DNA of 64,000 nucleotides. Source: Ornithinimicrobium sediminis. Lineage in GTDB: Bacteria > Actinomycetota > Actinomycetes > Actinomycetales > Dermatophilaceae. The position numbers and the translations under genes are program-made. The notes beneath the pieces were generated by a model. That model did no database searches and was not told the origin of the DNA. It saw nothing but the letters and a program-made list of their open reading frames with translations. Where the stretch lies: contig NZ_JAJSDQ010000002.1 in the NCBI RefSeq assembly GCF_021272345.1, positions 496,001 to 560,000 on the forward strand, written 5' to 3'. Below, piece by piece: positions 28,307 to 45,864 of the stretch (position 1 is its first letter; each line of letters begins with the position of its first letter).

Positions 28307-29600
<1,294 letters not shown>

Positions 29601-31308: not shown

Positions 31309-31320
31309 ATTGTCGACAAT
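31309..31320. promoter_or_regulatory. GntR-type operator, copy 1 (ATTGTCGACAAT)
   Basis: This perfect 12-bp palindrome lies between the divergent aminotransferase and aldehyde dehydrogenase genes, 35 and 46 bases from their starts. A further half-site (GTTGTCCGA) adjoins it. The identical sequence occurs at 34312 and a one-base variant at 45826, always in divergent promoters of the same island. Confidence 0.75.
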
Positions 31321-31366
31321 GTTGCGATGAGCGTAGCGTAGGCGCGACACCGATCAAGGAGGACGG

Positions 31367-32833
31367 ATGACCACCACTGCCGCCCAGGAGCTGCTCGCAC
31401 GGACACGCACCCGGATGTACGTCGGCGGTGAGTGGGTGGACGCGACCGGTGGGGCGACCTTCGACGTCGTCAACCCTGCCACCGGCGAGGTGCTCTGCGC
31501 GGTGGCTGACGCGAGCCCGGAGGACGGCCGCCGAGCCCTGGAGGCAGCGTCGGCCGCCCAGGCCTCGTTCGCTGCGACCACCCCCCTGGAGCGGCACGGC
31601 ATGCTGCTGCGGGCCTTCGAGCTGCTGATGGAGCGTCAGGACGAGCTCGCGCTGCTGATGACCCTCGAGATGGGCAAGCCGGTGGCCGAGGCCAGGGGCG
31701 AGATCGCCTATGCCGCGGAGTTCTTCCGTCACTTCGCCGGCGAGGCGCTGCGGATCGACGGTGGCTACCAGTCCTCCCCTCAGGGTGGGGCACGCTTCCT
31801 GGTCACCAAGCAGCCCGTGGGCCCCTGTCTGCTCATCACGCCCTGGAACTTCCCCATGGCGATGGGCACCCGCAAGATCGGCCCGGCCCTTGCTGCGGGG
31901 TGCACCAGCGTGATCAAGCCCGCGCACCAGACACCGCTGTCGATGCTGGCGCTGGCGGACGTCCTGAGCGAGGCCGGGGTGCCCGCGGGTGTGGTCAACG
32001 TGGTGCCGGCGATGCGTTCCGGCGAGGTGATGGAGCCGCTGATCCGCTCCGGGCTGGCCCGCAAGCTGTCCTTCACGGGCTCCACCAAGGTGGGCAAGGT
32101 CCTGCTCGAGCAGTCCGCCGAGAAGGTCCTGCGCACGTCCATGGAGCTGGGTGGCAACGCACCCTTCGTCGTCTTCGAGGACGCCGACCTCGACGAGGCG
32201 GTGGCCGGATGTCTGCAGGCCAAGATGCGCAACATGGGTGAGGCCTGCACCGCCGCCAACCGCATCTACGTCCACGAGTCGGTCATCGGCGAGTTCGGCG
32301 AACGGCTGGCGGCCCGGATGTCGGATCTGACGGTGGGTGACGGCACGAAGGACGGCAGCCAGGTCGGCCCGCTCATCGACGACGCGGCCCAGGACAAGGT
32401 CGAGATGCTGGTGCGCGATGCCGTGGACCGCGGTGCGGACGTCCTCACCGGGGGTCGACGCCCCGACGGGCCAGGGTTCTTCTACCCGCCGACCGTGTTG
32501 ACCGGTGTGTCGGGTGAGGCCCGGATGGCCGCCGAGGAGATCTTCGGGCCGGTCGCCGCGCTGACCCCGTTCTCCACGGAGGACGAGGCGGTCACGGCAG
32601 CCAACGACACCCCCTACGGTCTGGTCGCCTACGTCTTCACGAACGACCTGAGGAGGGCTCTGCGCGTCGCCGAGCGCATCGAGGCCGGCATGGTCGGCCT
32701 CAACCAGGGCGTGGTGTCCAACCCCTACGCACCGTTCGGCGGCATCAAGGAGTCGGGTCTGGGGCGAGAGGGCGGGTCGGTCGGGATCGAGGAGTTCCTC
32801 GAGACGAAGTACATCGGGATCGCGATGGGCTGA
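31367..32833 (+). CDS. NAD(P)-dependent aldehyde dehydrogenase (succinate-/aspartate-semialdehyde type)
   Basis: This 488-residue protein is a GabD-class ALDH. It has the catalytic cysteine in NMGEACTAANR, the general base in SMELGGNAPF, the cofactor loop FTGSTKVGK and the ITPWNFPMAM segment. In GABA pathways it makes succinate; in ectoine catabolism the related DoeC makes aspartate from its semialdehyde. Which applies cannot be told from sequence. A strong RBS (aaggaggac) precedes the ATG, and the shared operator lies upstream. Confidence 0.92.
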   Translation: MTTTAAQELLARTRTRMYVGGEWVDATGGATFDVVNPATGEVLCAVADASPEDGRRALEAASAAQASFAATTPLERHGMLLRAFELLMERQDELALLMTLEMGKPVAEARGEIAYAAEFFRHFAGEALRIDGGYQSSPQGGARFLVTKQPVGPCLLITPWNFPMAMGTRKIGPALAAGCTSVIKPAHQTPLSMLALADVLSEAGVPAGVVNVVPAMRSGEVMEPLIRSGLARKLSFTGSTKVGKVLLEQSAEKVLRTSMELGGNAPFVVFEDADLDEAVAGCLQAKMRNMGEACTAANRIYVHESVIGEFGERLAARMSDLTVGDGTKDGSQVGPLIDDAAQDKVEMLVRDAVDRGADVLTGGRRPDGPGFFYPPTVLTGVSGEARMAAEEIFGPVAALTPFSTEDEAVTAANDTPYGLVAYVFTNDLRRALRVAERIEAGMVGLNQGVVSNPYAPFGGIKESGLGREGGSVGIEEFLETKYIGIAMG

Positions 32834-32854
32834 CCCGCGGAGCCGCGGGGGTCA
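32831..32854. terminator. bidirectional hairpin between ALDH and GntR genes
   Basis: TGACCCGCGG and CCGCGGGGGTCA pair around a 2-base loop with a small bulge. The stem includes the stop codons of both convergent genes, so one hairpin can end transcription from both sides. Confidence 0.5.
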
Positions 32855-33553
32855 GCCTGCGGGGGCCTCGCGCGGCTGCTGGGTCAGGTCCGCGACCGCG
32901 TCGGCCATGTGCTGCGCCAGCAGCGACTGCGCGAGGGGGCCGTCGGCCGCACGGATCGCGTCGGCGATGCGCTGGTGCTCCTCCACCCGCAGCAGCGCGT
33001 CCTGCGGGCTCTGGCCCAGGGCCTGTATGCAGACGCGCGCCTCGGTCGCCTGCGTCGCGTGCACGCGGGCGAGGCGCTCGCTGCCGGCGCGGTCGACGAG
33101 CACCTCGTGGAACCGGATGTCGGCCTCGGCGACCCCGCGGTAGTCGGACCGGTCCGCTGCCAGCGTCATCTCGTCGAGCACGGGCTGCAGCGCGTCGGCG
33201 GTGCCCTGGGGGTCCCGTTCCACGACGACGGCGATGGCGCAGCGCTCGATCGCCTCACGGGCGAGGTACATGTCCCGCACGTTCTCCGGGGTGAGCTCGA
33301 CCACGAACAGGCCGCGGTGACGGATCGAGACCAGCAGCCCCTCCTGGGTCAGCCGCTGCAGCCCTTCCCGGAGAGGCCCCCGGCTGACCCCCAGCTGCCG
33401 GGCCAGCTCGGCCTCGTAGAGCTGTGCTCCGGGTGGGAAGTCCCCGCGGGCGATCGCCGTGCGCACCCGCGCCGCGATCATCATCGGGGTCGACTGCTGC
33501 ACCACCGGCTGCAGGGTGAGCGACGAGGGGTCGGTCACGGCAGGGGGCATCAC
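32852..33553 (-). CDS. GntR-family regulator with FCD domain
   Basis: The 233-residue protein has the GntR winged helix (VRTAIARGDFPPGAQLYEAE, then LARQLGVSRGPLREGLQRL) and an all-helical FCD domain with metal/ligand residues (LAREAIERCAIAVVVE, ADIRFHEVLVDRAGS, EEHQRIADAIRAAD). FCD regulators usually respond to carboxylic acids. It overlaps the racemase-family gene upstream by GTGA. FCD-GntR sites are short palindromes like the ATTGTCGACAAT repeats here, making it the likely controller of all three promoters. Confidence 0.9.
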   Translation of the reverse strand: MMPPAVTDPSSLTLQPVVQQSTPMMIAARVRTAIARGDFPPGAQLYEAELARQLGVSRGPLREGLQRLTQEGLLVSIRHRGLFVVELTPENVRDMYLAREAIERCAIAVVVERDPQGTADALQPVLDEMTLAADRSDYRGVAEADIRFHEVLVDRAGSERLARVHATQATEARVCIQALGQSPQDALLRVEEHQRIADAIRAADGPLAQSLLAQHMADAVADLTQQPREAPAG

Positions 33554-34293
33554 CGGGACGCCTCATGGTCGAACAGCCGCCCCAGGCCAGGTGCGTGCGG
33601 GACGTGGTCCAGCAGTCGCAGGCCGTCCCAGACGGTGACCTGGTTGGCGGTGAGCACGGGCATGCCTGCTGCCTCCTCCAGGGCAGGGACGAGCCCCAGC
33701 GTGTGCATCGCGGTGTCGGGCACGAGCAGGGCCTGCGCACCCCGCCGAGGAGCCTCCCGGACCAGACGGGCGACCTGGTCGGCGTCCAGGGTGCCCACCT
33801 CGGCAGCCGTGACGATCTCATGGCTGGTCATGTCGGTCACCGTGGCCCCCGCACGGTGGAGCAGGTCGACGAAGTGGACCGCGACGTCGCGGGGGTAGGA
33901 CGCCGCCACGGCGACCCGGGACAGTCCCAGGTGCCGCACGGCCCGGGCGAAGGCCAGGGAGGTGGAGGTGGCCGGGCGGCCGGTGTGCTCCCGCAGCTGC
34001 TTGACCTGTCGGCGGGCGCCGTCGTAGCCGAAGACGAAGCTGCCCGAGGTGCAGGCCCAGACGACCACGTCCGGGGAGTGGTCCCGCACGAGCCGGTCAG
34101 CCCCCTCGGCCAGCCGCTCCGCCGACCCGAGGTCCAGCAGTGCGTCGACCCGGTGCGCGTCCTCGCCCACGGAGGTGTGGGTGAGCGGGAAGCGATGCGG
34201 CTCCCCGGGTGCCGCCGCGTCGAGGATCCGCTCCGCGTGGACGTAGTCGTCCTCGGCGGAGTGCCCCGGGTAGAGCAGGCCGACGGTGGCCAT
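33550..34293 (-). CDS. Asp/Glu racemase-superfamily protein (maleate isomerase/EutA-like), one catalytic Cys missing
   Basis: The 247-residue protein has the family's two-lobed layout. The first-lobe motif VVWACTSGSFVFG keeps the catalytic cysteine. In the second lobe, where maleate isomerases and EutA have a cysteine, this protein reads LVPDTAMHTLG with aspartate in place. The substrate-loop ending TANQVTVWDGLRLL matches the family (SSNQ in its paralogue). It may be a decarboxylase, lyase or binding protein rather than an isomerase. It shares an operon with the GntR gene; the operator is 18 bases before its start. Confidence 0.78.
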   Translation of the reverse strand: MATVGLLYPGHSAEDDYVHAERILDAAAPGEPHRFPLTHTSVGEDAHRVDALLDLGSAERLAEGADRLVRDHSPDVVVWACTSGSFVFGYDGARRQVKQLREHTGRPATSTSLAFARAVRHLGLSRVAVAASYPRDVAVHFVDLLHRAGATVTDMTSHEIVTAAEVGTLDADQVARLVREAPRRGAQALLVPDTAMHTLGLVPALEEAAGMPVLTANQVTVWDGLRLLDHVPHAPGLGRLFDHEASR

Positions 34294-34311
34294 GTGTCCC
34301 TCCAGATCTCG

Positions 34312-34323
34312 ATTGTCGACAAT
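34312..34323. promoter_or_regulatory. GntR-type operator, copy 2 (ATTGTCGACAAT)
   Basis: The palindrome is identical to that at 31309. It lies between the divergent racemase-gntR operon and the FAD/Fe-S dehydrogenase gene, 18 and 40 bases from their starts, so GntR could autoregulate. Confidence 0.75.
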
Positions 34324-34363
34324 AGTATGGCCCGGGAGCGTCCCGGTTCGGTGAGAGGACCCC

Positions 34364-37237
34364 ATGAACCACGACATCGTGTCGACCGTGCAGCGCCTAC
34401 GGGCAGAGGTCCGGGGGCCGGTCGCCGACGACCCCACGGCCAAAGGACTGTATGCCGTCGACGCCAGCAACTACCGGGTCGTCCCCGACGCTGTGGTCAC
34501 CCCGCTGGACGTGGACGACCTCGTGGTGGCGCTGGCCGTGGCCCGGGAGGCCGGTGCGCCCACCGTGCTGCGGGCCGGGGGCACGACCATGGCCGGCAAC
34601 GCGATCGGGGGCGTGGTCCTCGACGTCTCCCGGCATCTCACCGGCATCCTCGACCTCGACCCGGTGGCCCGCACCGCCACGGTCGAGCCAGGTGTCGTCC
34701 TGAGCCATCTCAACACTGCAGCGCGCGCGCACGGCCTGACCTTCGCGGCCGACCCTTCGTCGGCGACGCGGGCCACGCTCGGGGGCATGATCGCCAACAA
34801 CGCGTGCGGGGCGCACTCGGTGGCCTGGGGTACGACGGCGGACAACGTGCTCGGCCTCGAGGTGGTCACCGGTGACGGCCAGCGCCTGTCACTGCAGTCT
34901 CCCGACGGCCGTGCGCGCGGCCGCCAGGAGATCGCGGCGCTGAGCGGCCCCGAAGGTGAGACGACCCGGCGTCTCCTGGCGCTGGGGGAGGAGCACCGGA
35001 GGCTGGTCGAGCGGCGGTTCGGCACCTTCTCCCGGCAGATCTCCGGCTACGCCCTGCAGCACCTCCTGCCGGAGCGTGGCGTAGACGTCGCGCGGTTGCT
35101 GGGTGGCAGCGAGGGCACGCTCGCCACCACCCTCCAGGCGACCCTGCGGCTGGTGGAGCTCCCGACGGCGAGCGTGCTGCTGGCCCTGGGCTTCCCCGAC
35201 GCCGGCGCGGCGGCCGACAGCGTGCCGGTCGTGCTGCCCCACCGGCCCCTGACGATGGAGTCCATCAACGCCACCCTGGTCGACCGGCTGCCGGCCGACG
35301 TGCGCGCAGCCGCGACGTCCGCAGGGCTGCCCGCCGGTTTCATGTGGCTGCTCGTCGAGGTCGGCGACGACGACCTCGACGCGGCGGGCGCCCGGGCCGC
35401 GAGCATCGCCGAGGAGGTGCGCGACCGCATACCCGGCTCCACCTCCTCCGCCGTGACCGACCCGGCGGCACAGTCCGTGCTCTGGAGGTGCCGCCGTGAC
35501 GGGACCGGGCTGGCCACGCGGCGCGCCGACGGCGCCGAGGCCTGGTGCGGCTGGGAGGACGCCGCCGTGCCGCCGCAGCGGCTGGGTGCCTACCTGCGCG
35601 GCCTGGACGAGCTGCTGGGTCGCTACGGCTACTCCGGTGCCTCCTACGGGCACTTCGGCGAGGGCTGCATGCACATGCGGATCGACTTCGACTTCCTCAC
35701 CGACGCAGGCAGACGTGACTACCGTTCCTTCCTGGAGCAGGCGACCGACCTCGTGGTCGGTCTGGGTGGCTCCGTCTCGGGGGAGCACGGGGACGGCCGG
35801 GCGCGCGGGGAGATGGTGGCGCGGATGTACGGCACGGACACCATGGCCGTCTTCGAGCAGGTCAAGAGCATCTTCGACCCGGCCGGTGTGCTCAACCCGC
35901 ACGTCATCACCGACCCTCGACCGGTCGACGAGGACCTCCGGGTGGCCGGTCGGGCCCAGCACCGGCACGTCGCCACGATCTTCTCCTACCCCGAGGACCA
36001 CGGGGACTTCGCGCAGGCCCAGCGTCGGTGTGTCGGTGTCGGCAAGTGCCGTCAGACCTCGGGCGGTGTGATGTGCCCGAGCTACCAGGTCACCCGGGAG
36101 GAGGAGCACTCCACGAGGGGACGCGCCCATCTCCTGTTCGAGATGCTGGAGGGCGACGTCATCACCGACGGCTGGCGCTCCACCGAGGTGCGCGACGCAC
36201 TGGACCTCTGTCTGTCCTGCAAGGGGTGCCTGGGGGACTGCCCGGTCAACGTCGACATGGCGACCTACAAGGCCGAGTTCACCCACCACCACTACAAGGG
36301 CCGACCGTGGCGGCGACCACGGTCCCACTGGTCCATGGGCTGGCTCCCGGTGTGGGCACGTGCGGCAAGCCTGGCGCCCAGCCTGGTCAACGCGGTCACC
36401 GGCTCGCCGGCAGCACCGGCGCTGCGGACCGTCGGCGGCATCGCCGACCGGGAGATCCCCCGCTTTGCCCGACGCAGTCTCACGCGATGGTTCGCCGACC
36501 GAGCACGGGAGGGGACCGGGCACCGAGGCCCGGTGCTGCTGTGGCCCGACACCTTCAGCACCTACCTCGCTCCTGAGGTCGGGCAGGCGGCGGTGCGGGT
36601 CCTGGAGGCTGCAGGGTTCGAGGTCCACCTCCCTCGCGGGCCCGTCTGCTGCGGGCTGACCTGGGTCTCGACGGGACAGCTGGGGGTGGCCCAGGCGGTC
36701 CTGCGCCGGTCTCTCGACACGATCGGGCCGGCGCTGCGGGCCGGAGCCCCGGTGGTGGGCCTCGAGCCCAGCTGCACGGCGATGCTCCGGCACGACGCCG
36801 CAGACCTGCTCGGTGGTGCAGACCTCGCCGTCCGGGCCAGGAGCCAGGTGGTCACCCTCGCCGAGCTGCTACGGGACCGGGCCGGCGACTGGCGACCCCC
36901 GCAGGTCGGTGGACAGGCCCTGGTCCAGGTGCACTGTCACCAGCACTCGGTCATGGGCTTCTCCGCGGACCGCGACCTGATGGCCGCCGCCGGCATCGAG
37001 GTCACCGTCCCCGACTCCGGGTGCTGCGGGCTGGCGGGCAACTTCGGCTTCGAGGCCGGGCACGAGGACGTGTCGCGCGCGGTGGGTGAGCGAGTGCTGC
37101 TCCCGGCCGTACGGGCTGCCGGGCAGGGCGTCGCCGTCGTCGCCGACGGGTTCAGCTGCCGCACCCAGATCGCGCAGGAGACGCCCCGGAGGGCTCGCCA
37201 TCTGGCGGAGCTCCTGGCGGACGGGCTGTCCGGCTGA
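34364..37237 (+). CDS. FAD-binding and Fe-S 2-hydroxyacid dehydrogenase
   Basis: In this 957-residue protein, residues 1-250 hold the VAO-type FAD domain (VLRAGGTTMAGNAIGG; GGMIANNACGAHSVAWGT), followed by a FAD-oxidase C-terminal domain (GASYGHFGEGCMHMR). From about 550 come two 4Fe-4S motifs (CVGVGKCRQTSGGVMCP; CLSCKGCLGDCP), then two CCG domains (VCCGLTW; GCCGLAGN). This is the layout of D-lactate/D-2-hydroxyglutarate dehydrogenases that pass electrons to quinone. In this island it may oxidise a 2-hydroxyacid intermediate made by the linked pathway. Confidence 0.9.
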   Translation: MNHDIVSTVQRLRAEVRGPVADDPTAKGLYAVDASNYRVVPDAVVTPLDVDDLVVALAVAREAGAPTVLRAGGTTMAGNAIGGVVLDVSRHLTGILDLDPVARTATVEPGVVLSHLNTAARAHGLTFAADPSSATRATLGGMIANNACGAHSVAWGTTADNVLGLEVVTGDGQRLSLQSPDGRARGRQEIAALSGPEGETTRRLLALGEEHRRLVERRFGTFSRQISGYALQHLLPERGVDVARLLGGSEGTLATTLQATLRLVELPTASVLLALGFPDAGAAADSVPVVLPHRPLTMESINATLVDRLPADVRAAATSAGLPAGFMWLLVEVGDDDLDAAGARAASIAEEVRDRIPGSTSSAVTDPAAQSVLWRCRRDGTGLATRRADGAEAWCGWEDAAVPPQRLGAYLRGLDELLGRYGYSGASYGHFGEGCMHMRIDFDFLTDAGRRDYRSFLEQATDLVVGLGGSVSGEHGDGRARGEMVARMYGTDTMAVFEQVKSIFDPAGVLNPHVITDPRPVDEDLRVAGRAQHRHVATIFSYPEDHGDFAQAQRRCVGVGKCRQTSGGVMCPSYQVTREEEHSTRGRAHLLFEMLEGDVITDGWRSTEVRDALDLCLSCKGCLGDCPVNVDMATYKAEFTHHHYKGRPWRRPRSHWSMGWLPVWARAASLAPSLVNAVTGSPAAPALRTVGGIADREIPRFARRSLTRWFADRAREGTGHRGPVLLWPDTFSTYLAPEVGQAAVRVLEAAGFEVHLPRGPVCCGLTWVSTGQLGVAQAVLRRSLDTIGPALRAGAPVVGLEPSCTAMLRHDAADLLGGADLAVRARSQVVTLAELLRDRAGDWRPPQVGGQALVQVHCHQHSVMGFSADRDLMAAAGIEVTVPDSGCCGLAGNFGFEAGHEDVSRAVGERVLLPAVRAAGQGVAVVADGFSCRTQIAQETPRRARHLAELLADGLSG

Positions 37238-37448
37238 AGGTCGCCGAACACGCGCCACCCGTCGGTCACGGCCGTCGCCGAGCCGGCCCTGGCCTCCGTC
37301 AGCGCTGGTCGCCGGGCGGCCGGCGTGCGACCCTGGAGTCATGCCCAGGACCACCCATGCGCCCCGACGGACTCGGCGTCCGCGGCGTGTCGCCGGCCCG
37401 CGGCCTGTCACGCCCTCCGCTCCTGTGAGGGTCTGACCGGGGGCTGAC

Positions 37449-39602
37449 ATGACGGGTCAGGAGCTGAAGGTGCTCGGTGGCCGCTACGAGATCGGGGAGC
37501 TGATCGGACGTGGCGGGATGTCCGACGTCCACGCCGGCCGTGACCTCAAGCTGGGCCGTGACGTCGCCGTCAAGATCCTGCGCAGCGAGCTGGCCCGAGA
37601 CCCCTCCTTCCTCACCCGCTTCCGCAGGGAGGCGCGCGCCGCTGCGCAGCTCGACCACCCCTCCATCGTCACCGTCTACGACTGGGGCGAGCACGAGGTC
37701 ATCGAGTCGGGAGGCGCACCGCTACCCGTGGCCTACATCGTCATGGAGCACATCCAGGGACACACCCTGCGAGAGCTGCTCAACGGCGTGGAGGGGGTCG
37801 ACCCCGACGAGGCTGCGCGCATCGTGGCCGCGGTGCTCTCTGCCCTGGAGCTCTCCCACGCACACGGCATCGTCCACCGTGACATCAAGCCCGCCAACGT
37901 CATGCTCACCGCAGACGGGGGTGTCATGGTCATGGACTTCGGCATCGCGCGGGCTCTCGCCGACAGCGGCACCACGACCCTGCAGAACGACGTGCTGGGC
38001 ACCGCGCGCTACATCTCGCCGGAGCAGGCGCAGGGCCAGGACGTGGACGCCCGCTCCGACCTGTACTCGACGGCCTGTCTGCTCTACGAGCTGCTGGCGG
38101 GCCGGGCCCCCTTCGTCGGTGACCCGATGTCCCTGGTCCACCAGCACATCCACGAGGAGGCGGCACGGCCCTCGTCGGTGCGCCCGGACGTGTCCGAGGC
38201 CCTGGACACCGTGTGCCTGCATGCCCTGCGGAAGGACCCGGCCGAGCGCTACGCCTCCGCCCGGGAGTTCCGGGAGGACCTCCTGGCGGCGCTCGAGGGC
38301 GTGCCGGCCTCCTCGCTGCCCCATGCGCCGGCGTCCCAGGGCGCGCGGAGGGCGGCTGCTGGGCTGGCAGCCCTGGGGCTGCCCATGTCGGAGGTCACGG
38401 CCGGCGGGCCGCGCGGTGGGGACGAGGCACCGGCACCGTCGCGCGGGGTCGGCCGGCGTCGCACCTGGACCGCACCGGCGGCCGTGGCGCTGCTCGCTCT
38501 GGTCGGCGTCGGATGGGTCGTCTTCCAGGTGTTCGGTCCCGGCACGGCGACCACCCAGGCAGCCGGTGTCACAGTGCCGTCCCTGACCGAACTGACGAGG
38601 GACGAGGCGGAGGCCGACCTCGCCGCGCTCGGACTGGTGGCGCAGGTCGAGCTCGTCGCCAGCACCAGGGCTGTCGGCACCGTCATCGGCCAGGACCCGC
38701 AAGCCCTGGTCTCGGTGCCGGAGGGCTCCTCGGTGCTCGTCCGTGTCTCGTCCGGCCCGGATGCGGTGACCGTGCCCGATGTCCGGGGGTCGAGCGAGTC
38801 GGCCGCGCGCACCATCCTGGAGCAACGTGGGCTCCGCGTCGCCGAGGAGGTGAGCGAGACCATCGACGTCGACCTCGCGGACGGGGCTGTGTCGGACACC
38901 GACCCGGCGGCTGGTGAGGAGGTCAGCCCGGGGACGTCGGTGACGCTCGTGCTGGCCAGCGGGCAGTCCGAGGTGCCCGACGTCGTGGGCCTGCGCTCGG
39001 TCGAGGCAGTGGGCCTGCTGCTCGACAACCGGCTGCGGGGCCAGATCGAGCGCGTGCCCACCTCCGAGGCTGCGCCCGGCACGGTGGTCGAGCATCGACC
39101 GGAGGCGGGTGCCGTGGTGGACTACGGCACCGACGTGGTGCTGGTCGTGGCGTCGACACCGCCACCGCCACCGCCGCCACCACCCCCACCCCCGGAGCCG
39201 CCGGCTCCCGCCTCGCCGGCCCCCGCCCCTACGCCCCCTCCCGCGCCGGAACCGACGACGAGACCGTCGCCGACGACCGAGCCGGAGCCGACGACCGACC
39301 CGGAGCCGACCACGGAGCCGGAGCCGACCACGGAGCCGGAGCCGACCACGGAGCCGGAGCCGACGACCGACCCGGAGCCGACCACGGAGCCGGAGCCGAC
39401 CACGGAGCCGGAGCCGACGACCGACCCGGAGCCGACCACGGAGCCGGAGCCGACGACCCCGCCACCGACGAGCGAGCCCCCTCCGACGACCGACCCTCCC
39501 GCGCCGACGACACAGACGTCCGAGCCCACCCAGGAGCTGCCGCCGTCGCCGCGGCCTCCGCCCCCACCGGACCCGTCGCCCTCGACACAGGGGCGGCCGT
39601 GA
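37449..39602 (+). CDS. PASTA-domain Ser/Thr protein kinase with long Pro/Glu/Thr tail
   Basis: The 717-residue protein has a kinase domain at residues 10-280: glycine loop LIGRGGMSDVHAG, lysine VAVKILR, catalytic loop HRDIKPANVM, DFGIARA and APE-like ISPEQAQG. A juxtamembrane stretch and one helix (AAVALLALVGVGWVVFQVFG) follow near residue 345. Outside are three PASTA repeats (VTVPSLTELTRDEA; VTVPDVRGSSES; SEVPDVVGLRSVE) and a 150-residue tail of (E/D)PEPTT repeats. PASTA domains sense peptidoglycan fragments. Unlike pknB of the division cluster, it has no rodA/pbpA neighbours here. Confidence 0.93.
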   Translation: MTGQELKVLGGRYEIGELIGRGGMSDVHAGRDLKLGRDVAVKILRSELARDPSFLTRFRREARAAAQLDHPSIVTVYDWGEHEVIESGGAPLPVAYIVMEHIQGHTLRELLNGVEGVDPDEAARIVAAVLSALELSHAHGIVHRDIKPANVMLTADGGVMVMDFGIARALADSGTTTLQNDVLGTARYISPEQAQGQDVDARSDLYSTACLLYELLAGRAPFVGDPMSLVHQHIHEEAARPSSVRPDVSEALDTVCLHALRKDPAERYASAREFREDLLAALEGVPASSLPHAPASQGARRAAAGLAALGLPMSEVTAGGPRGGDEAPAPSRGVGRRRTWTAPAAVALLALVGVGWVVFQVFGPGTATTQAAGVTVPSLTELTRDEAEADLAALGLVAQVELVASTRAVGTVIGQDPQALVSVPEGSSVLVRVSSGPDAVTVPDVRGSSESAARTILEQRGLRVAEEVSETIDVDLADGAVSDTDPAAGEEVSPGTSVTLVLASGQSEVPDVVGLRSVEAVGLLLDNRLRGQIERVPTSEAAPGTVVEHRPEAGAVVDYGTDVVLVVASTPPPPPPPPPPPPEPPAPASPAPAPTPPPAPEPTTRPSPTTEPEPTTDPEPTTEPEPTTEPEPTTEPEPTTDPEPTTEPEPTTEPEPTTDPEPTTEPEPTTPPPTSEPPPTTDPPAPTTQTSEPTQELPPSPRPPPPPDPSPSTQGRP
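39279..39458 (+). repeat. ten tandem 18-bp repeats in the kinase tail
   Basis: Ten exact-length units of 18 bases (gagccggagccgaccacg with g/c variants) encode (E/D)PEPTT. Units 2, 6 and 9 carry Asp first and the others Glu, a pattern that suggests past duplication of blocks. Copy number is likely to vary between strains. Confidence 0.9.
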
Positions 39603-39839
39603 GGCCAGATCCGGATGAGGGACCAGAGCCGACCGAGCTCGGCTGAGAGCCGACGGAAGGACGACGCTGCGTGGGCGAAGACCGGAGGAGCACGTCGCAA
39701 AGACCCTCTGACCTGGGTTCTCCGTTACCAGATCGTCATCCACAGGGTGCTGCGCACGGCGTCGCCATCGTGGGATGCTCCGTCCACACGTGACCTTCCG
39801 TGCTCGGGGCGCGAGGTCACACGGATCCAGGAGTGATGC

Positions 39840-40412
39840 ATGCAACGATCGAAGCAGGCGACCGGAGTGTTCTCGGCTGCTGCGCTGGTGGCCTTCGGGT
39901 TCCTGGGCGCGAGCGCCGCGACAGCCGACCAGCACGAGGAGGACTCGCGCAGGGTCACCTTCTGCCACGCCACCCCACCCGCCACCGCGGCCCAGGGCTG
40001 GAACGCGATCACCACCGACGGCAACGCGATCATCCGGCAGGGCCACGACGGTCACGGTGCCGACATCATCCCCGCGTTCACCTATGACGACGGGGAGTAC
40101 CCCGGTCTCAACCTCGACACCGTGTTCGGCTCCGGCGTCACCGGGGCCGAGATCCTGGCCGCCGGGTGCGTCCTGGTCGAGCCCGAGGAGCCGGAGGAGC
40201 CCGAGGAGCCGGAGGAGCCGGAGGAGCCCGAGGAGCCCGAGGAGCCGGAGGAGCCCGAGAAGCCGGAGCAGCCCGAGGAGCCCGAGAAGCCGGAGCAGCC
40301 CGAGAAGCCCGTGACCCCCGTCGAGCCCACGAAGCCGGTCACGCCCGCGGAGCCCGTCGAGCCGGCGAAGCCGGCGACCCCGGTCACCGGTGAGGTCGAC
40401 TACACCGGGTGA
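39840..40412 (+). CDS. secreted Glu/Pro-repeat protein with a CHATxx domain
   Basis: The 190-residue protein has a signal peptide (MQRSKQATGVFSAAALVAFG, cleavage near TADQ). A 75-residue domain follows, starting VTFCHATPPATAAQGWNAI and ending ADIIPAFTYDDGEYPGL, with cysteines near its ends. Similar CHxTGS...DIIPPF domains occur in many secreted actinobacterial proteins of unknown function. The tail is (EEP/EKP/EQP)n, ending in TPVTGEVDYTG, with no LPxTG anchor or final membrane helix. It lies between a PASTA kinase and an L,D-transpeptidase, so a wall or surface role is likely. Confidence 0.75.
   Translation: MQRSKQATGVFSAAALVAFGFLGASAATADQHEEDSRRVTFCHATPPATAAQGWNAITTDGNAIIRQGHDGHGADIIPAFTYDDGEYPGLNLDTVFGSGVTGAEILAAGCVLVEPEEPEEPEEPEEPEEPEEPEEPEEPEKPEQPEEPEKPEQPEKPVTPVEPTKPVTPAEPVEPAKPATPVTGEVDYTG
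40179..40315 (+). repeat. EEP-coding low-complexity repeats
   Basis: About 15 copies of a 9-base unit (gagcccgag/gagccggag forms) encode EEP, EKP and EQP triplets in the secreted protein's tail. The stretch could form an extended stalk and is prone to length change. Confidence 0.8.
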
Positions 40413-40497
40413 GGCACGCGACCCTGCGGCGGCCCGGAGGGACACCCGGGCCGCCGCCGCTACCTGGGTGCCACAGCCCGCCGCCGTCGGGGGAGTC

Positions 40498-41268
40498 GTG
40501 CACCCCCGGCTGACGAGGCACGTGGGCTGGGGGGCCGCCGCGCTGCTGCTGTTGCTCGGATGCTCGGCCCCGACGACCGACCCCTCGGCGACCACCGCGA
40601 GCGAGCGCGCGACCACGGCCGCGTCCGCCTCGGCGGTGGACGTGGGCGCCCCCGGGGACAGCGCCCGGGTCGTGCCGTCCTCGTCGCTGGCCGCGGAGTC
40701 CGTGGGCAGCACGGTGGCTGTCCGCGCGACCGTGGACGGCCCGGTCACCCATACCTTCGACAACCCCACGCCGACGGGGGTCCCGCTGACCTTCGCGGTG
40801 CTCGACAGCCGTGAGGGCTGGCTCGAGGTGCAGCTGCCGGTGCGGCCCAACGGGACCACCGGCTGGGTCGAGGCGCAGCAGGTCACGGTCCGCGAGGTCC
40901 GTCACTTCCTGCGGGTCTCCACCTCGGCCAACACGCTGGAGCTCTACCGCCACGGAGAGCTGGTGCAGCAGCTCCCGGTCGCGACCGGCACGGGCGACAC
41001 GCCCACGCCCTTGGGCACGTTCTACCTCACCGAGCTGGTGGCGCCGACGAACGAGGGCTACGGACCGTTCGCCTACGGGATCTCGGCCTACTCGGATGTG
41101 CTCAACGAGTTCCTCGGTGGACCCGGCCAGATCGGGCTGCACGGCACCGACGACGCGGGCAGCATCGGTCGAGCCGCCAGCCACGGCTGCATCCGCATGG
41201 ACAACGACGACATCACGACCCTCTCCGCTCTGCTGCCCCTCGGGACCCCGATCGAGATCACGGAGTGA
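40498..41268 (+). CDS. L,D-transpeptidase lipoprotein (YkuD)
   Basis: The GTG at 40498 with ggggga upstream gives 256 residues. A lipoprotein signal ends in the lipobox LLLLGCS. A Ser/Thr/Ala-rich linker and a beta-rich region come next, then the YkuD domain (FLRVSTSANTLELYRHGELV; TPLGTFYLTEL) with active-site histidine in IGLHGTDD and cysteine in ASHGCIRM. It should form 3-3 cross-links in peptidoglycan. Its 3' end overlaps the convergent M20 gene by 11 bases. Confidence 0.9.
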   Translation: MHPRLTRHVGWGAAALLLLLGCSAPTTDPSATTASERATTAASASAVDVGAPGDSARVVPSSSLAAESVGSTVAVRATVDGPVTHTFDNPTPTGVPLTFAVLDSREGWLEVQLPVRPNGTTGWVEAQQVTVREVRHFLRVSTSANTLELYRHGELVQQLPVATGTGDTPTPLGTFYLTELVAPTNEGYGPFAYGISAYSDVLNEFLGGPGQIGLHGTDDAGSIGRAASHGCIRMDNDDITTLSALLPLGTPIEITE

Positions 41269-42463
41269 GCAGGCGCAGGGCAGCCAGGGCGTAGGCGCGG
41301 GCGGCCACGACGAGCTCGTCCACCCCCACCGACTCGTCGGGTCGGTGCGCCTGGTCGCTCACCGAGCCGGGGCCCAGCACGACGACGGGCAGACCCCACT
41401 CGGCGTCCACGAAACCGCCGTCACAGGCCGCCGTCCACCCACCGAGCGGCAGGCCCGGTCCTCCGGCGTCGGCGAGCGCCCGGTCGGTCGCCACGACCAC
41501 CGGGTGGTCAGCCTGTGTCTCGAAGCCGGGCATGTCCATGGGCGACTCGAGGGTCCAGCTCAGCCCGCGCTCGTCCAGGCGCAGCGAGGCCAGGCGAGCC
41601 TGGACCGCCTCGACGACAGAGGCGATGGACTCACCCGGCAGGAGCCGGCGGTCCACCTCCACCCGGCACTCGGCCGGCACCACGGACCCACCGGTGCCAC
41701 CCGTGATGACGCCGACGTTGAAGGTGGGGGGCCCGACCAGGGGATGGGGGCTGCGGGCCAGCTCGGCGTGCCAGCGCTCGACCTCCGCCACGACGGCGGC
41801 CGCGCCGTGGATGGCGTTGCGCCCGTCGCCGGGCCGTCCGGCATGCGCGGCGACCCCGTGGACGGTCACGACCAGGTAGCACGCACCCCGCGCCGCCACG
41901 ATGGTCTGCAGGTCGGTGGGCTCGGCCACGAGGCACCCCAGCAGGTCGTGGCGCGGCCGCCGGGCGATCCACTCCCGCACCCCGATGCCCTCCTGCTCCT
42001 CGTCGGCGAGGGCGGCGAGGAGCACGGGGCCGGACGGCCTGACGTCTGCTGCACGGAGGGCACGCATCGCGACCAGCGCCGCAGCGAGCCCGCCCTTCAT
42101 ATCGCTGCTCCCACGCCCGTGGAGGCGGCCGTCGCGGACCTCACCACCGAAGGGGTCGAGGCTCCAGCCGTCGCCGACCGGCACGACATCGGTGTGCCCG
42201 AGGACCAGCAGGCCCGGACCGCCTCCGCCGGGCAGGACGACCTCCACGTTCGGCCGCCCCGGTCGGACGTCCCACGCGTGTGCCTCCAGTCCGGCGCCCA
42301 CCGCAAGGTCGACGAGGACGTCGGCCGTGGCGGCCTCATCACCGGGCGGGTTCTGTCCAGGTGCCTGCACCAGCCGCCGGGTCATCGCGACCAGGTCGTC
42401 GGCGTCGACGAGCGCCAGCACCCGACGCTCCAGGTCGGACAGGGTGTCCTGTCTCACCTCCAT
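41258..42463 (-). CDS. M20-family deacylase (ArgE/DapE-like)
   Basis: The 401-residue zinc peptidase-fold protein has metal ligands in VLGHTDVVPVGDGW and RGSSDMKGGLAAAL, the catalytic ALADEEQEG, and the lid-domain segment GVAAHAGRPGDGRNAIHG. Family members remove acyl groups from amino acids such as acetylornithine. In this operon, behind the ectoine-hydrolase homologue, it is well placed to deacetylate N-acetyl-diaminobutyrate in place of the usual DoeB/EutE, but that is inference. It starts 8 bases after the aminotransferase stop. Confidence 0.85.
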   Translation of the reverse strand: MEVRQDTLSDLERRVLALVDADDLVAMTRRLVQAPGQNPPGDEAATADVLVDLAVGAGLEAHAWDVRPGRPNVEVVLPGGGGPGLLVLGHTDVVPVGDGWSLDPFGGEVRDGRLHGRGSSDMKGGLAAALVAMRALRAADVRPSGPVLLAALADEEQEGIGVREWIARRPRHDLLGCLVAEPTDLQTIVAARGACYLVVTVHGVAAHAGRPGDGRNAIHGAAAVVAEVERWHAELARSPHPLVGPPTFNVGVITGGTGGSVVPAECRVEVDRRLLPGESIASVVEAVQARLASLRLDERGLSWTLESPMDMPGFETQADHPVVVATDRALADAGGPGLPLGGWTAACDGGFVDAEWGLPVVVLGPGSVSDQAHRPDESVGVDELVVAARAYALAALRLLTP

Positions 42464-42470
42464 GCCCGGG

Positions 42471-43682
42471 TCAGCCGGCCAGGCGGTCGACCGCCGCCCG
42501 CAGCCGGGCCACACCCTCGGCAATGCGCGGGGGCGGTGTCGAGGCGAAGCACAGGCGCAAGGCGTCGGGGAACCGGCGGCTGGGGGAGAACGCGTTGCCC
42601 GGGATGTAGGCGACGCCCTCGGCCAGGGCCACCTCGAAGAGCGCCTCGGTGTCCACCGCCGGGTCGAACGTCACCCAGAGGAAGAAGCCGCCCTCGGGGT
42701 CGGTCCACCGTGCCAGGTCGCCGAAGTGCTCCGTCAGCGCCTGCTGCATCGCCACCTTGCGCTCGTGGTACGCGGCCCGGGTGCGCGTGAGGTGCTCGGC
42801 GAGGTAGCCCTCTCGCAGGAAGCCCTCGAGCATCCGCTGGGCAGGCAGGTTGGTGCACGTGTCCATGGCCTGCTTGGCGTTGATGAGCAGCCGCTGCAGC
42901 GACGGGTCGGTGTCGACCCAGCCCACCCGCAGCCCAGGGGCCACGATCTTGCTGAAGGTGCGCACCGAGAAGACCAGCGGGTCGCCGTCGGCGAGCTGGT
43001 GCAGCGACGGCACGGGTTCGCCGGCGAAGCGCAGCATCCCGTAGGGGTCGTCGTCGATGACCAGGGACCCCCACTCCCGCGCCACCTCGAGCAGCTGGTG
43101 ACGGCGAGCCAGGCTCAGGGAGGTGCCGGAGGGGTTCTGGAAGGTCGGGACGGTGTAGATCGCCTTCGGCGTCCGTCCTGCGTGGTCGACCAGGGCGACG
43201 AGCGCGTCGACGTCCATGCCTTCCTGGTCGACCGGCACCTCGAGCAGCTGCGCCTGGTAGGAGAGGGCGGTCGCGCTGCCGTTGGTGTACGTAGGCGACT
43301 CCACCGTCACCAGGTCACCGGGGTCGACGAAGAGCTTGCACGCAAGGTCCAGCCCCTGCATGCCACCGGAGGTGATGGTGACCCGGTCCAGGGTGGTGGC
43401 GTCGGTCGTGCCCTCCAGCGCGGCCACGAGCGCCTCGCGCAGGGGCATGTCACCCTCGGTGGCGGCGTAGTCGAAGGAGTCGGGCCGGTGCACCCCCAGG
43501 GCCGTCGCCGAGACCTCGGCCAGGGCTCGCGTCGGGATGGCCTCGGCGGCCGGTGACCCCATCGCGAAGCGCACGATGTCGTGCGACTGCCTGGCGAGCA
43601 GGGAGGTGCTCGAGTCGATCACCGAGCCGACCAGGTCGTCGGCGCGGGCCGCGAGCGGGAGGCTGGTGGTGGGGGTGGTCAT
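42471..43682 (-). CDS. class I/II PLP aminotransferase (2-aminoadipate/MocR-type fold)
   Basis: This 403-residue stand-alone aminotransferase has the TSGGMQGLDLACKLFVDPGD segment, YTVPTFQNPSGTSLS, VIDDDPYGMLRF and the PLP lysine in VRTFSKIVAPGLRVGW. It has no DNA-binding domain, unlike MocR regulators. Relatives act on 2-aminoadipate, kynurenine or aromatic amino acids. It may transaminate a diamino- or 2-hydroxy-derived intermediate of the operon. The ATG at 43682 has aaggag upstream. Confidence 0.85.
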   Translation of the reverse strand: MTTPTTSLPLAARADDLVGSVIDSSTSLLARQSHDIVRFAMGSPAAEAIPTRALAEVSATALGVHRPDSFDYAATEGDMPLREALVAALEGTTDATTLDRVTITSGGMQGLDLACKLFVDPGDLVTVESPTYTNGSATALSYQAQLLEVPVDQEGMDVDALVALVDHAGRTPKAIYTVPTFQNPSGTSLSLARRHQLLEVAREWGSLVIDDDPYGMLRFAGEPVPSLHQLADGDPLVFSVRTFSKIVAPGLRVGWVDTDPSLQRLLINAKQAMDTCTNLPAQRMLEGFLREGYLAEHLTRTRAAYHERKVAMQQALTEHFGDLARWTDPEGGFFLWVTFDPAVDTEALFEVALAEGVAYIPGNAFSPSRRFPDALRLCFASTPPPRIAEGVARLRAAVDRLAG

Positions 43683-43717
43683 GATGGCTCCTTCGTGTTG
43701 CGGACGGGGACAAGCGG

Positions 43718-44992
43718 TCAGGTCTTGACGGTCAGGTGCGGGGGGAGATGGGTGAGCAGCTCGGCATGGTCCTCCTGCACGAGCACGGACTGGGACACCT
43801 CGTAGCCCCAGCCGTCCATCCACATCCCGAGGATCACGTGGAAGGCCATGCCGGCCTCCAGCACGCTCTCCTCCTCGGCGCGCAGGCTGATCGTGTGCTC
43901 ACCCCAGTCGGGGGGGTAGCCGATGCCGATGGAGTAGCCGATCCGCGACTCCTTGACCAGGCCGTGCCGGCCGATGGCCTCGCGGAAGGCCCGGTGGACG
44001 TCCCGTCCGCTGGCCCCGGCGCGGATGGTCGCGAGCGCGGCCTCCATACCCTCGGCGGTGGCGTCCGCGCAGTGCGCCAGCCGGTCCGGTGGGGTGCCCA
44101 GCGAGACGGTGCGGGCCAGGGGGGCGTGGTAGCGCCGGTAGACCCCGGCCAGCTCCACGGTCGTCGCCTCGTGGGCGCGCAGCCGCAGGTCCGACCACGT
44201 CAGGTGCGGGGTGCCGGCGGTGATGCCGGTGGGGAGCATCGGCACGATCGCCGGGTAGTCCCCGCCCAGCGTGCGCGCTCCGAGCGTCTGGGCGTACTGG
44301 ATCTCGGCGACCACGTCGCACTGCCGGCGGCCCACGGCGATGTTCTCGATGGCCACCTGCATGACCCGCTCGGCGATCTCGCCGGCGACCCGCAGCATGT
44401 CCTGCTCCGCCGCGGACTTCACCACCCGCACCCAGTTGACGAGCTCATGGCTGTCGACCATCGTCGCGCTCGGCAGCGCCTGCCAGAGTGCGAGGAAGCC
44501 ACGCGCCGAGAAGTAGTGGGCGTCCAGCTCGGCCGCGACGACCATCTCGGAGCTGTTGGAGACGAGCCCGAGCTCGACGGCCGTGGCCGCGATCCAGTCG
44601 TAGGGGTGCACGTCAGGGCGGTGCACGTAGGTCTCCGGGTAGCCGTGGACGTGGTCCGGGGGGAGGTATGCCGTGTGGGTCGCACCCTGGGCGTCCATGG
44701 CCCTGGCGAACAGGTGCGGCGTCCCGGTCGCCGGCACCACCAGGCACTGCGGCATGTAGAAGGACCAGGCGTTGTACCCCGTGAGGTAGTAGAGGTTGGC
44801 GGGGTCGGCGACGACGAGCGCCCCGAACCCCCGCTCGGCCATCACCGACTGGACCCGGACCAGGCGTTGCTCGTACTCCACCACCGGGAACGGTCTGGAC
44901 CAGAGCTGGTCGTGCTCGACCATGCCCACGTCGCCGTCCCCCACCACGGTCAGCCGGTCCTCGCTGAGGTCCCCCTCGGTGAACGTGCTCAT
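43718..44992 (-). CDS. doeA: ectoine hydrolase-like M24 protein (DoeA/EutD)
   Basis: The 424-residue protein has a creatinase N-terminal domain (VADPANLYYLTGYNAWSFYM) and a pita-bread C-terminal domain. Segments characteristic of DoeA/EutD are GGDYPAIVPMLPTG, PHLTW, YRRYHAPLARTVSLGTPP and IGYPPDWGEHTISLR. Metal ligands of true M24 aminopeptidases are largely replaced, as in ectoine hydrolases. DoeA opens the ectoine ring to N-acetyl-2,4-diaminobutyrate. The gene is coupled to the EutA-like gene by ATGA. Hydroxyectoine or a related cyclic amidine is an alternative substrate. Confidence 0.82.
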   Translation of the reverse strand: MSTFTEGDLSEDRLTVVGDGDVGMVEHDQLWSRPFPVVEYEQRLVRVQSVMAERGFGALVVADPANLYYLTGYNAWSFYMPQCLVVPATGTPHLFARAMDAQGATHTAYLPPDHVHGYPETYVHRPDVHPYDWIAATAVELGLVSNSSEMVVAAELDAHYFSARGFLALWQALPSATMVDSHELVNWVRVVKSAAEQDMLRVAGEIAERVMQVAIENIAVGRRQCDVVAEIQYAQTLGARTLGGDYPAIVPMLPTGITAGTPHLTWSDLRLRAHEATTVELAGVYRRYHAPLARTVSLGTPPDRLAHCADATAEGMEAALATIRAGASGRDVHRAFREAIGRHGLVKESRIGYSIGIGYPPDWGEHTISLRAEEESVLEAGMAFHVILGMWMDGWGYEVSQSVLVQEDHAELLTHLPPHLTVKT

Positions 44993-45801
44993 GCCATCAC
45001 CCCGGGTGGGCGCAGGACGCGCGGCGGCCGTGGGGCGGAGGCCAGTGCCTGGGTCGGCGTGCTGAGCTCGAGCCCGACCGCGGCCAGGGCGGCCCACAGG
45101 GTGACCTGGTTGGAGGACAGCACCGGCAGCCCCAGCTCGGCCTCGAGCGAGCCGAGGATGTCGAAGGTGGGCACGTTGGTGCACGACACGAAGACGGCCT
45201 CGGCCCCGGGCACGACGCAGCCGCGGACCATATGGGAGACCTGCTCGTAGTTCAGGGCCCAGATGCGCTCGGTGAGCCCGAGGAACGAGCACGAGACGAC
45301 CTCGATGCCGGCGGCGGCGAGGAACGCGCGCAGCCGTCCGGTCACGAGGTCGTCGTACGGCGTGGCCACCGCCAGCCGGCGCACCTGCAGCGCTGTCAGC
45401 GCGTCGACGAGGGCCCCGCTGGTCGTGACCGCCCGGGGGACACCGGCGGACTCGATCGCCTGCCGAAGGGCGACCTCACCGGTGCTTCCTCGCACGAACG
45501 ACCCGGACGTGCAGGCGTAGGCGACGACGTCCGGAGCTGTCTCGGTGATGGTCCGGGTGCAGGTGTGGAGCACCGTGGCCGCACTGACGACCTCGGCCTG
45601 GCTGACGGAGACCGGCAGCTGCTGGTGCGGGGTGCGCGTGAGCAGCAGGTTGACGGAGTCGGGCACCCAGCGCCAGAGCTCGCGGTCGAGGGCGAAGTCG
45701 TAGGGGGCGATCACACCGACCCCGACGCTGCCGATCGGGGTGACCGGCTTGGCGGAGGTGTCGGGGGCCGGCAGCCAGGCCCCGGTCACATCTGCGTTCA
45801 T
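44989..45801 (-). CDS. eutA: EutA/maleate-isomerase-like protein with both catalytic cysteines
   Basis: The 270-residue protein carries VVAYACTSGSFVRGS (first cysteine) and AVFVSCTNVPTFDIL (second cysteine), the pair used by maleate cis-trans isomerases and conserved in EutA of ectoine-utilisation operons. The C-terminal SSNQVTLWAAL loop matches. It heads the operon with doeA, an aminotransferase and the M20 deacylase. EutA's reaction is not firmly established; a role in handling hydroxyectoine-derived intermediates has been proposed. The ATTGTTGACAAT site is 25 bases before the start. Confidence 0.78.
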   Translation of the reverse strand: MNADVTGAWLPAPDTSAKPVTPIGSVGVGVIAPYDFALDRELWRWVPDSVNLLLTRTPHQQLPVSVSQAEVVSAATVLHTCTRTITETAPDVVAYACTSGSFVRGSTGEVALRQAIESAGVPRAVTTSGALVDALTALQVRRLAVATPYDDLVTGRLRAFLAAAGIEVVSCSFLGLTERIWALNYEQVSHMVRGCVVPGAEAVFVSCTNVPTFDILGSLEAELGLPVLSSNQVTLWAALAAVGLELSTPTQALASAPRPPRVLRPPGVMA

Positions 45802-45825
45802 TGGCGCATCCTGCCGTGCCCGCGG

Positions 45826-45837
45826 ATTGTTGACAAT
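45826..45837. promoter_or_regulatory. GntR-type operator, copy 3 (ATTGTTGACAAT)
   Basis: This is a one-base variant of the palindromes at 31309 and 34312. It lies in the 63-base gap between the divergent eutA-like and D-2-hydroxyacid dehydrogenase operons, 25 and 27 bases from their starts. Confidence 0.7.
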
Positions 45838-45864
45838 AAGACACACCCTACCTACGTTGGCGCG

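Follow-up and report, generated by a model that had tools for sequence, protein, structure and literature searches.

Three copies of one 12-bp palindrome stand between divergently transcribed genes of a catabolic island in Ornithinimicrobium sediminis, and the question raised by this locus is which protein reads the palindrome and what pathway is controlled through it. The window, by which we mean the whole 64,000-nucleotide stretch analysed (contig NZ_JAJSDQ010000002.1 of assembly GCF_021272345.1, positions 496,001 to 560,000), also encodes a GntR regulator with an FCD domain (32852–33553, minus strand). Comparisons of sequence across the actinobacteria make it highly probable that the palindrome is the operator of this protein, the two forming a GntR-operator-regulon unit, and likely that in Actinomycetes the protein acts as a repressor, its regulon being a putative one for ectoine/hydroxyectoine catabolism, as a counterpart to EnuR of Proteobacteria.

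Two of the copies are exact (ATTGTCGACAAT) and have no strand. Operator 1 (31309–31320) lies in the gap between a class-III aminotransferase gene (from 31274, minus strand) and an aldehyde dehydrogenase gene (from 31367, plus strand), and operator 2 (34312–34323) in that between the EutA1-gntR operon (from 34293, minus) and a gene for an FAD oxidase (from 34364, plus). Operator 3 (45826–45837, plus strand) reads ATTGTTGACAAT, one change at the centre of ATTGTCGACAAT, and separates the EutA2 operon (from 45801, minus) from a D-2-hydroxyacid dehydrogenase gene (from 45865, plus). The start codons, as chosen in this analysis, are 18–46 bp from each of the three operators. Because EutA1 and gntR are transcribed from one strand and share 4 bp, operator 2 marks the promoter of the regulator's own operon. 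The initial annotation had described this arrangement, with three copies in divergent intergenic gaps and one of them at the promoter of the operon that includes the GntR gene, and scans of the window and genome bear it out.

At up to two mismatches the window contains six strand-matches compared to a shuffle mean of 0.56, and six were reached in none of 100 shuffles. In the whole genome (16 contigs, 3,529,222 bases) ATTGTYGACAAT occurs at three places only, all of them divergent gaps of the island, while the reversed-pattern control has no match in the genome and about 0.009 exact copies would be expected per genome (independent bases, window composition). Allowing up to two mismatches to ATTGTCGACAAT raises the number of places genome-wide to 22, comprising the three operators (0, 0 and 1 mismatch) and 19 places with exactly two mismatches, compared to five for the reversed pattern. 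Two of the 19 were inspected, one being the site of a BCCT transporter gene and the other (C16:47034) lying between genes that appear by eye to be unrelated. Strong matches are thus restricted to these promoters, accompanied by a weak transporter site, as had been predicted for such a scan.

The candidate regulator (233 amino acids) matches PF00392 (1.2e-16) and PF07729 (3.1e-20), both over cut-off, and so has the N-terminal GntR winged helix-turn-helix and C-terminal FCD domain by which FadR/FCD proteins are recognised. SRGPLRE and the FCD residues D145, H149, H193 and H215 are invariant across an alignment of 18 homologues; by analogy with HypR/TM0439 (PMC6608401) these four residues may be metal ligands. 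The operator consensus given for the FadR subfamily in PMC4494728 is TKGT/ACMA with 2–3 nucleotides between GT and AC, two being less common, and ATTGT-NN-ACAAT fits it with the rarer 2-nucleotide distance, in agreement with the earlier suggestion that FCD-GntR regulators bind short palindromes of this kind.

Regulator and palindrome occur together in the window's family. GntR relatives (E ≤ 1e-30) were found in 64 of the 186 family genomes searched and exact ATTGTYGACAAT in 75, the motif being present in 63/64 genomes with the regulator compared to 12/122 without (Fisher p 4.7e-36). This test takes related genomes as independent and the count by genus is safer, with the motif in 17/17 GntR-positive compared to 6/36 GntR-negative genera (p 3e-9); within the window's genus it is present in 22/22 GntR-positive and 1/9 GntR-negative genomes. 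Seven of the 12 GntR-negative genomes that have the motif were inspected (G004, G017, G026, G027, G039, G104 and G105; the remaining five are G129, G153, G154, G162 and G167), and the catabolic gene set was not found in any of them within stretches of 6.9–13.5 kb (two of 8 kb for G026). Their sites precede transporter-type genes in G017, G026 and G027 (in G026 beside another GntR-like gene, by eye), fall inside called genes in G004 and G104 or inside a weak M20 match in G105, and in G039 are near no called gene. GntR-negative G134 carries an orphan eutD-like gene, and the 19.9 kb scanned there hold no site within one half-site mismatch.

The positions of the palindrome were compared in two collections of loci. 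The family loci (40 loci of up to 20 kb each) come from 40 of the 64 GntR-positive genomes; nine more genomes, and a second GntR of one, were mapped outside these counts. The wider loci are the best 80 of 571 relatives found by scanning the GntR alignment against one genome each of 84,980 species, ten of them being the same places as family loci, and they represent Ornithinimicrobium, Serinicoccus, Arthrobacter, Mycobacterium, Cryobacterium, Kocuria, Gordonia, Kribbella, Amycolatopsis, Nocardia, Streptomyces and others. The maps of relatives combine tblastn searches, for which the proteins of the window were the queries, with a crude gene caller based on codon scores, and genes counted as absent may be diverged. 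Exact ATTGTNNACAAT is present in 38/40 family loci (92 sites; 20 shuffle rounds gave none) and in 74/80 wider loci (169 sites; 0.1 on average in shuffles). When half-site spacings of 0–10 bp were tried in both collections the spacing was 2 bp, the only other occurrences being 1–8 at 9 or 10 bp, with none other at 0–8 bp. Detected set genes or transporters begin within 300 bp downstream of 84/92 family sites and 152/169 wider sites, five of the latter lying inside a detected gene. Four Kribbella loci (L158, L160, L180, L184) have unusually many near-copies of the motif around the set, some inside genes.

Since a match to the motif was what brought a site into the alignment, column conservation is partly circular, and gaps were therefore picked by gene order alone, with aligned starts. 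Exact ATTGTNNACAAT is present in all 72 orthologous divergent gaps of the family loci and in 69/71 of those in the wider loci, where both misses hold one-mismatch copies. It occupies the aminotransferase/aldehyde dehydrogenase gap in 29/29 family and 20/22 wider cases, the gap between the hydroxyacid dehydrogenase gene and a facing EutA2 or M24 gene in 30/30 and 26/26, the EutA1/FAD oxidase gap in 10/10 and 9/9, and the aminotransferase/hydroxyacid dehydrogenase gap in 3/3 and 14/14.

Transporter genes are also preceded by the palindrome in relatives. Counting that of the window genome, 20 same-genus BCCT orthologues were read, and in 15 of them a copy with up to two half-site mismatches lies 78–162 bp upstream of the anchor; the transporter is therefore an optional target. 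Two further BCCT matches (L230, L231) have no anchor and are outside the 20, and the orthologues of G114, G106, G123 and G119 (GntR-positive) and G116 (GntR-negative) have no copy with fewer than three half-site mismatches. Elsewhere ProP-like symporters and BCCT carriers have extra sites in front of them (of these proteins, two ProP-like and one BCCT were scanned), and in G107, G110, G111 and G112 of the window's genus a site precedes an ABC transporter. In Arthrobacter and others EhuB-like genes lie inside the set, and 11 sites are no more than 300 bp in front of such a gene. The ABC transporter of L095, scanned as one of four such loci, matches EhuB (177 bits, cut-off 191) and EhuC (165 bits, cut-off 197) best; the transporter types of other relatives were read from first residues or tblastn. 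Two genomes from a different genus in the family have the motif in pairs, about 73 bp apart, ahead of an ABC transporter gene (L087 at 6915 and 6988, L102 at 6198 and 6272).

The genes flanking the operators point to ectoine degradation, the known route of which is described in PMC5924519. The M24 protein (43718–44992, minus strand) is of the DoeA/EutD ectoine-hydrolase type, and among solved proteins its full-length matches are the DoeA chains (6twk, 6twj; 353 bits), the next match scoring 92 bits. Atf- and Ssd-type homologues are present, both under equivalog cut-offs: the class-III aminotransferase (30024–31274, minus; PF00202 5.2e-120), which reaches no NCBIfam cut-off among the 25 of 69 matches listed and for which we propose the role of diaminobutyrate transaminase (DoeD/Atf), and a succinate-semialdehyde-dehydrogenase-like aldehyde dehydrogenase (31367–32833, plus; PF00171 2.2e-162; TIGR01780 565 bits, under the cut-off of 646) with a proposed DoeC/Ssd role. 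An M20 deacylase of ArgE/DapE type (41258–42451, minus; TIGR01910 237 bits, over the cut-off of 218) is the proposed replacement for DoeB/EutE. The set also includes two EutA/arylmalonate-decarboxylase-like proteins, EutA1 (33550–34293, minus, overlapping gntR; PF17645 8.3e-25; TIGR02990 87 bits) and EutA2 (44989–45801, minus; PF17645 2.8e-28; TIGR02990 96 bits), both under the TIGR02990 cut-off of 318, together with an FAD/4Fe-4S D-2-hydroxyacid dehydrogenase resembling YdiJ/GlcD (34364–37237, plus; the FAD oxidase above, under NCBIfam cut-offs in the Pfam/NCBIfam scan), an NAD-type D-2-hydroxyacid dehydrogenase (45865–46845, plus; PF02826 3.3e-46) and, downstream of the latter, an amidase (46859–48277, plus; PF01425 5.7e-95). 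As the genes for the two EutA-like proteins, both 2-hydroxyacid dehydrogenases (FAD/Fe-S and NAD-type) and the amidase have the operator in common, these proteins are probable members of the catabolic pathway.

On these homologies ectoine or hydroxyectoine is the substrate that we favour, with moderate confidence; the initial annotation named none. The alternative that fares best, and which we regard as a possible but less probable one, is that the regulon is real and serves another compound, such as a cyclic amidine, a hydantoin-like compound, an acylated diamino acid or some other osmolyte. Several results count against ectoine, some of them also in favour of such a compound. The M24 protein scores 414 bits for TIGR02993, under the cut-off of 613, and M24 matches in 22/31 same-genus genomes include none (0/31) over it; EutA1, EutA2, EhuB and EhuC are likewise under their NCBIfam cut-offs. 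EutE/DoeB was not found in the window genome (no TIGR02994 match), the M20 deacylase standing in the set, and neither EutB nor EutC is among the set proteins scanned, the genome not having been searched for them. Two arylmalonate-decarboxylase-like proteins, an amidase and two 2-hydroxyacid dehydrogenases exceed the needs of the known ectoine route. The closest plasmid relatives of the M24 protein (48%) include M24-M20 pairs of Shinella, and no annotated ectoine gene lies within 12 kb of the one such pair that was inspected. However, ectoine proteins are the best relatives both of the M24 protein and of the ABC transporter whose genes bear the motif, carriers of the BCCT and ProP-like types suit compatible solutes, and PMC13188858 proposes Gram-positive ectoine clusters that have no eutE and carry an amidohydrolase and MFS or BCCT transporters.

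A second alternative concerns the protein that reads the palindrome, which might be another DNA-binding protein, with the GntR gene merely travelling with the set. Co-occurrence cannot fully separate the two since set and regulator are inherited together, and the maps of relatives were made without a search for other regulator genes. Against this, four loci have the GntR gene with no other detected set gene, and three of them, all from Cryobacterium (L142, L145, L151), keep an exact site around 70–90 bp ahead of the GntR match, while in the fourth (L156, on a 6.3-kb contig) the copy has one mismatch; the fit of the motif to the FadR-subfamily consensus as given in PMC4494728 also speaks for the GntR protein. 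We therefore consider a different binder unlikely. The GntR regulon proposed in the initial annotation gains strong support from the near-unique sites, the co-occurrence, the orthologous gaps and the sites at lone GntR genes.

Some observations nevertheless do not sit well with a simple one-regulator, one-set relationship. Three of the 63 co-occurring genomes (G144, G147 and G175) have their sites away from this set: in G147 (GntR 48%) they have other genes as neighbours, with GntR about 6 kb away, and in G144 and G175 the exact motif stands beside divergent GntR paralogues (34%) with other neighbours. G030 has a GntR (55%) and neither the motif nor the set. Of the 80 wider loci six have no exact site, four being on contigs of less than 8 kb and two (L166, L195) having one-mismatch copies only. 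The site is upstream of EutA1 or GntR in 20/40 family and 48/80 wider loci, and autoregulation is therefore common but not constant. In the window genome itself the BCCT gene, on another contig, is preceded by only a degenerate site, 108 bp before the start codon (two mismatches, or ATTGTCGACAAT with one inserted base), and the 3.9-kb locus of the EhuBC-like genes (EhuB around 60% identical) holds no copy with two or fewer half-site mismatches. In L112 (9484) and L114 (10748) exact ATTGTCGACAAT also lies close to a transporter gene of the binding-protein type and a divergent GntR paralogue (34%), and perhaps a second regulon uses the same operator there.

The third alternative, that GntR is an activator at some of these promoters, appears as improbable as a different binder. 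FadR-subfamily regulators can activate, depending on the position of the site (PMC6608401), but the sites here overlap -35 or -10-like elements at short distance from the start codons, and this overlap with core promoter elements suits a repressor. At operator 3 the predicted hydroxyacid dehydrogenase promoter (45830–45858, plus strand) has its -35 box TTGACA (45830–45835) inside the palindrome, followed by a 17-bp spacer and the -10 box TACGTT (45853–45858), with the GTG start at 45865, 6 bp past the -10, in a leaderless-like arrangement. At operator 2 a TAGTAT -10-like box (34323–34328, by eye) overlaps the last base of the site. Where the hydroxyacid dehydrogenase gene faces EutA2 or M24, each of 35 sites reads ATTGTTGACAAT, its TTGACA directed towards the dehydrogenase; counting one more site of this kind, TANNNT follows 17–19 bp past TTGACA in 32/36 dehydrogenase-side sites (15–19 bp allowed) compared to 2.9% in shuffled sequence; the L067 site (GntR/dehydrogenase gap) has no TTGACA, and in the seven sites where the dehydrogenase faces the aminotransferase TTGACA points the opposite way. 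The aminotransferase/aldehyde dehydrogenase sites have a CG centre in 20/34 cases. A G before the site (2.0 bits at this pair, 1.3–1.4 at the dehydrogenase) and a C after it (1.4–1.5) extend the dyad in relatives, with a further G, four bases before the outer G of the site, fixed at the aminotransferase/aldehyde dehydrogenase pair; in the operators of the window the dyad ends at 12 bp. Finally, that the palindromes are chance occurrences or shared promoter -35 boxes, as the TTGACA in operator 3 might suggest, is rejected given their uniqueness in the genome, the CG-centred copies that contain no -35 box, the gaps picked by gene order and the shuffles.

Under the preferred reading, with the GntR protein as repressor of an ectoine-type set, a mechanism can be outlined in which binding, repression as the sign of control, the inducer and the substrate are all features that we infer from sequence. 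A GntR dimer would bind ATTGT-NN-ACAAT, overlapping core elements of the three divergent promoters, and would repress six transcripts, among them its own; binding of a pathway intermediate in the FCD pocket would then release it from the operator. The DoeA-like M24 protein would open the ring to give N-acetyl-diaminobutyrate, from which the M20 protein would remove the acetyl group, and the class-III transaminase and aldehyde dehydrogenase would carry the product to aspartate. EutA1, EutA2, the two 2-hydroxyacid dehydrogenases and the amidase may handle a hydroxylated product or a side product.

In Proteobacteria ectoine catabolism is under the control of EnuR, a MocR-type GntR protein (PMC5924519, PMC8739950, PMC5320631), whose consensus is quoted in PMC8739950 as ATTGTnnnnnnACAAT. 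As described in PMC8739950 and PMC5320631, EnuR/EutR resembles the system proposed here in governing an EutD/Atf/Ssd/EutA-type set plus transporter and in having the same ATTGT/ACAAT half-sites. It differs in having a pyridoxal-phosphate-dependent aminotransferase domain and half-sites 6 bp apart (PMC8739950), whereas here the domain is FCD and the spacing 2 bp; the 6-bp spacing has no occurrence in the 40 family and 80 wider loci. That the regulator is an EnuR orthologue is ruled out by its having only GntR and FCD domains and by the different spacing. The set of the window also contains a MocR-type aminotransferase (42471–43682, minus strand; Pfam/NCBIfam) without a DNA-binding domain, which is ruled out as the operator binder for want of that domain. 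Standing beside the FCD-GntR gene it looks like one of the two halves of an EnuR-like protein encoded as separate genes; it shows no sign of descent from EnuR, and the PdxR model scores higher.

The FadR/FCD regulators covered by PMC4494728 share the GntR winged helix-turn-helix plus FCD architecture, the A/T-rich TKGT/ACMA palindrome and the divergent promoters, but differ in gene content, with no ectoine-type regulator among the groups named there. HypR of Streptomyces coelicolor, as characterised in PMC6608401, is similarly an FCD-GntR repressor of an actinobacterial catabolic set and an autorepressor, but its motif is CTNTGC(A/C)ATGTCAC and its targets are hydroxyproline genes. Putative ectoine clusters in Bacillota and Actinomycetota were proposed in 2026 (PMC13188858), eutE being absent from those of the Bacillaceae considered there. 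These resemble the present set in having a eutD-like gene without eutE, an amidohydrolase and MFS, BCCT, Ehu or Ueh transporters, but the regulator named there is PucR, for Bacillota, and GntR, Streptomyces, Janibacter and Ornithinimicrobium are absent from the main text of that paper; its actinobacterial clusters could be this set. Judged by titles and abstract starts among the matches listed, a literature search returned nothing on this operator or on an FCD-GntR regulator of an ectoine set.

The operators link genes 14 kb apart, as first noted, with a cell-surface block between them. This block (37449–41268, plus strand; maps of relatives, Pfam), which lies outside the regulon, encodes a PASTA Ser/Thr kinase with long TEPEPTTDPEP repeats, a PEEPEEP repeat protein and an L,D-transpeptidase. 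In relatives with the FAD oxidase after EutA1 (e.g. L059, L063, L068, L069) the M20 gene is directly next, and elsewhere M20 follows EutA1; since the set is contiguous in relatives, the block is an intrusion, by insertion or rearrangement in this lineage. The island is framed by tyrosine/homogentisate genes, namely those of a 4-hydroxyphenylpyruvate dioxygenase (28392–29600, by eye), a fumarylacetoacetase (49696–50919) and a homogentisate-dioxygenase-like protein (51885–53192), and a counterpart of the first is also near the set in several relatives.

We suggest tentatively, as a proposal somewhat short of an even chance, that Actinomycetes run ectoine/hydroxyectoine catabolism through an FCD-GntR regulator of their own, with EnuR half-sites brought 4 bp closer, a deacylase other than EutE, and a route for the hydroxylated form that is free of EutB/EutC and uses two EutA-like proteins and 2-hydroxyacid dehydrogenases. 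This would supply an operator, a regulator and a gene list for a route called only putative in Gram-positive bacteria in PMC13188858, and the regulon would reach Arthrobacter, Kocuria, Gordonia, Kribbella, Nocardia, some mycobacteria and others. It would also add genes to the pathway, for most of which the known ectoine route has no agreed step.

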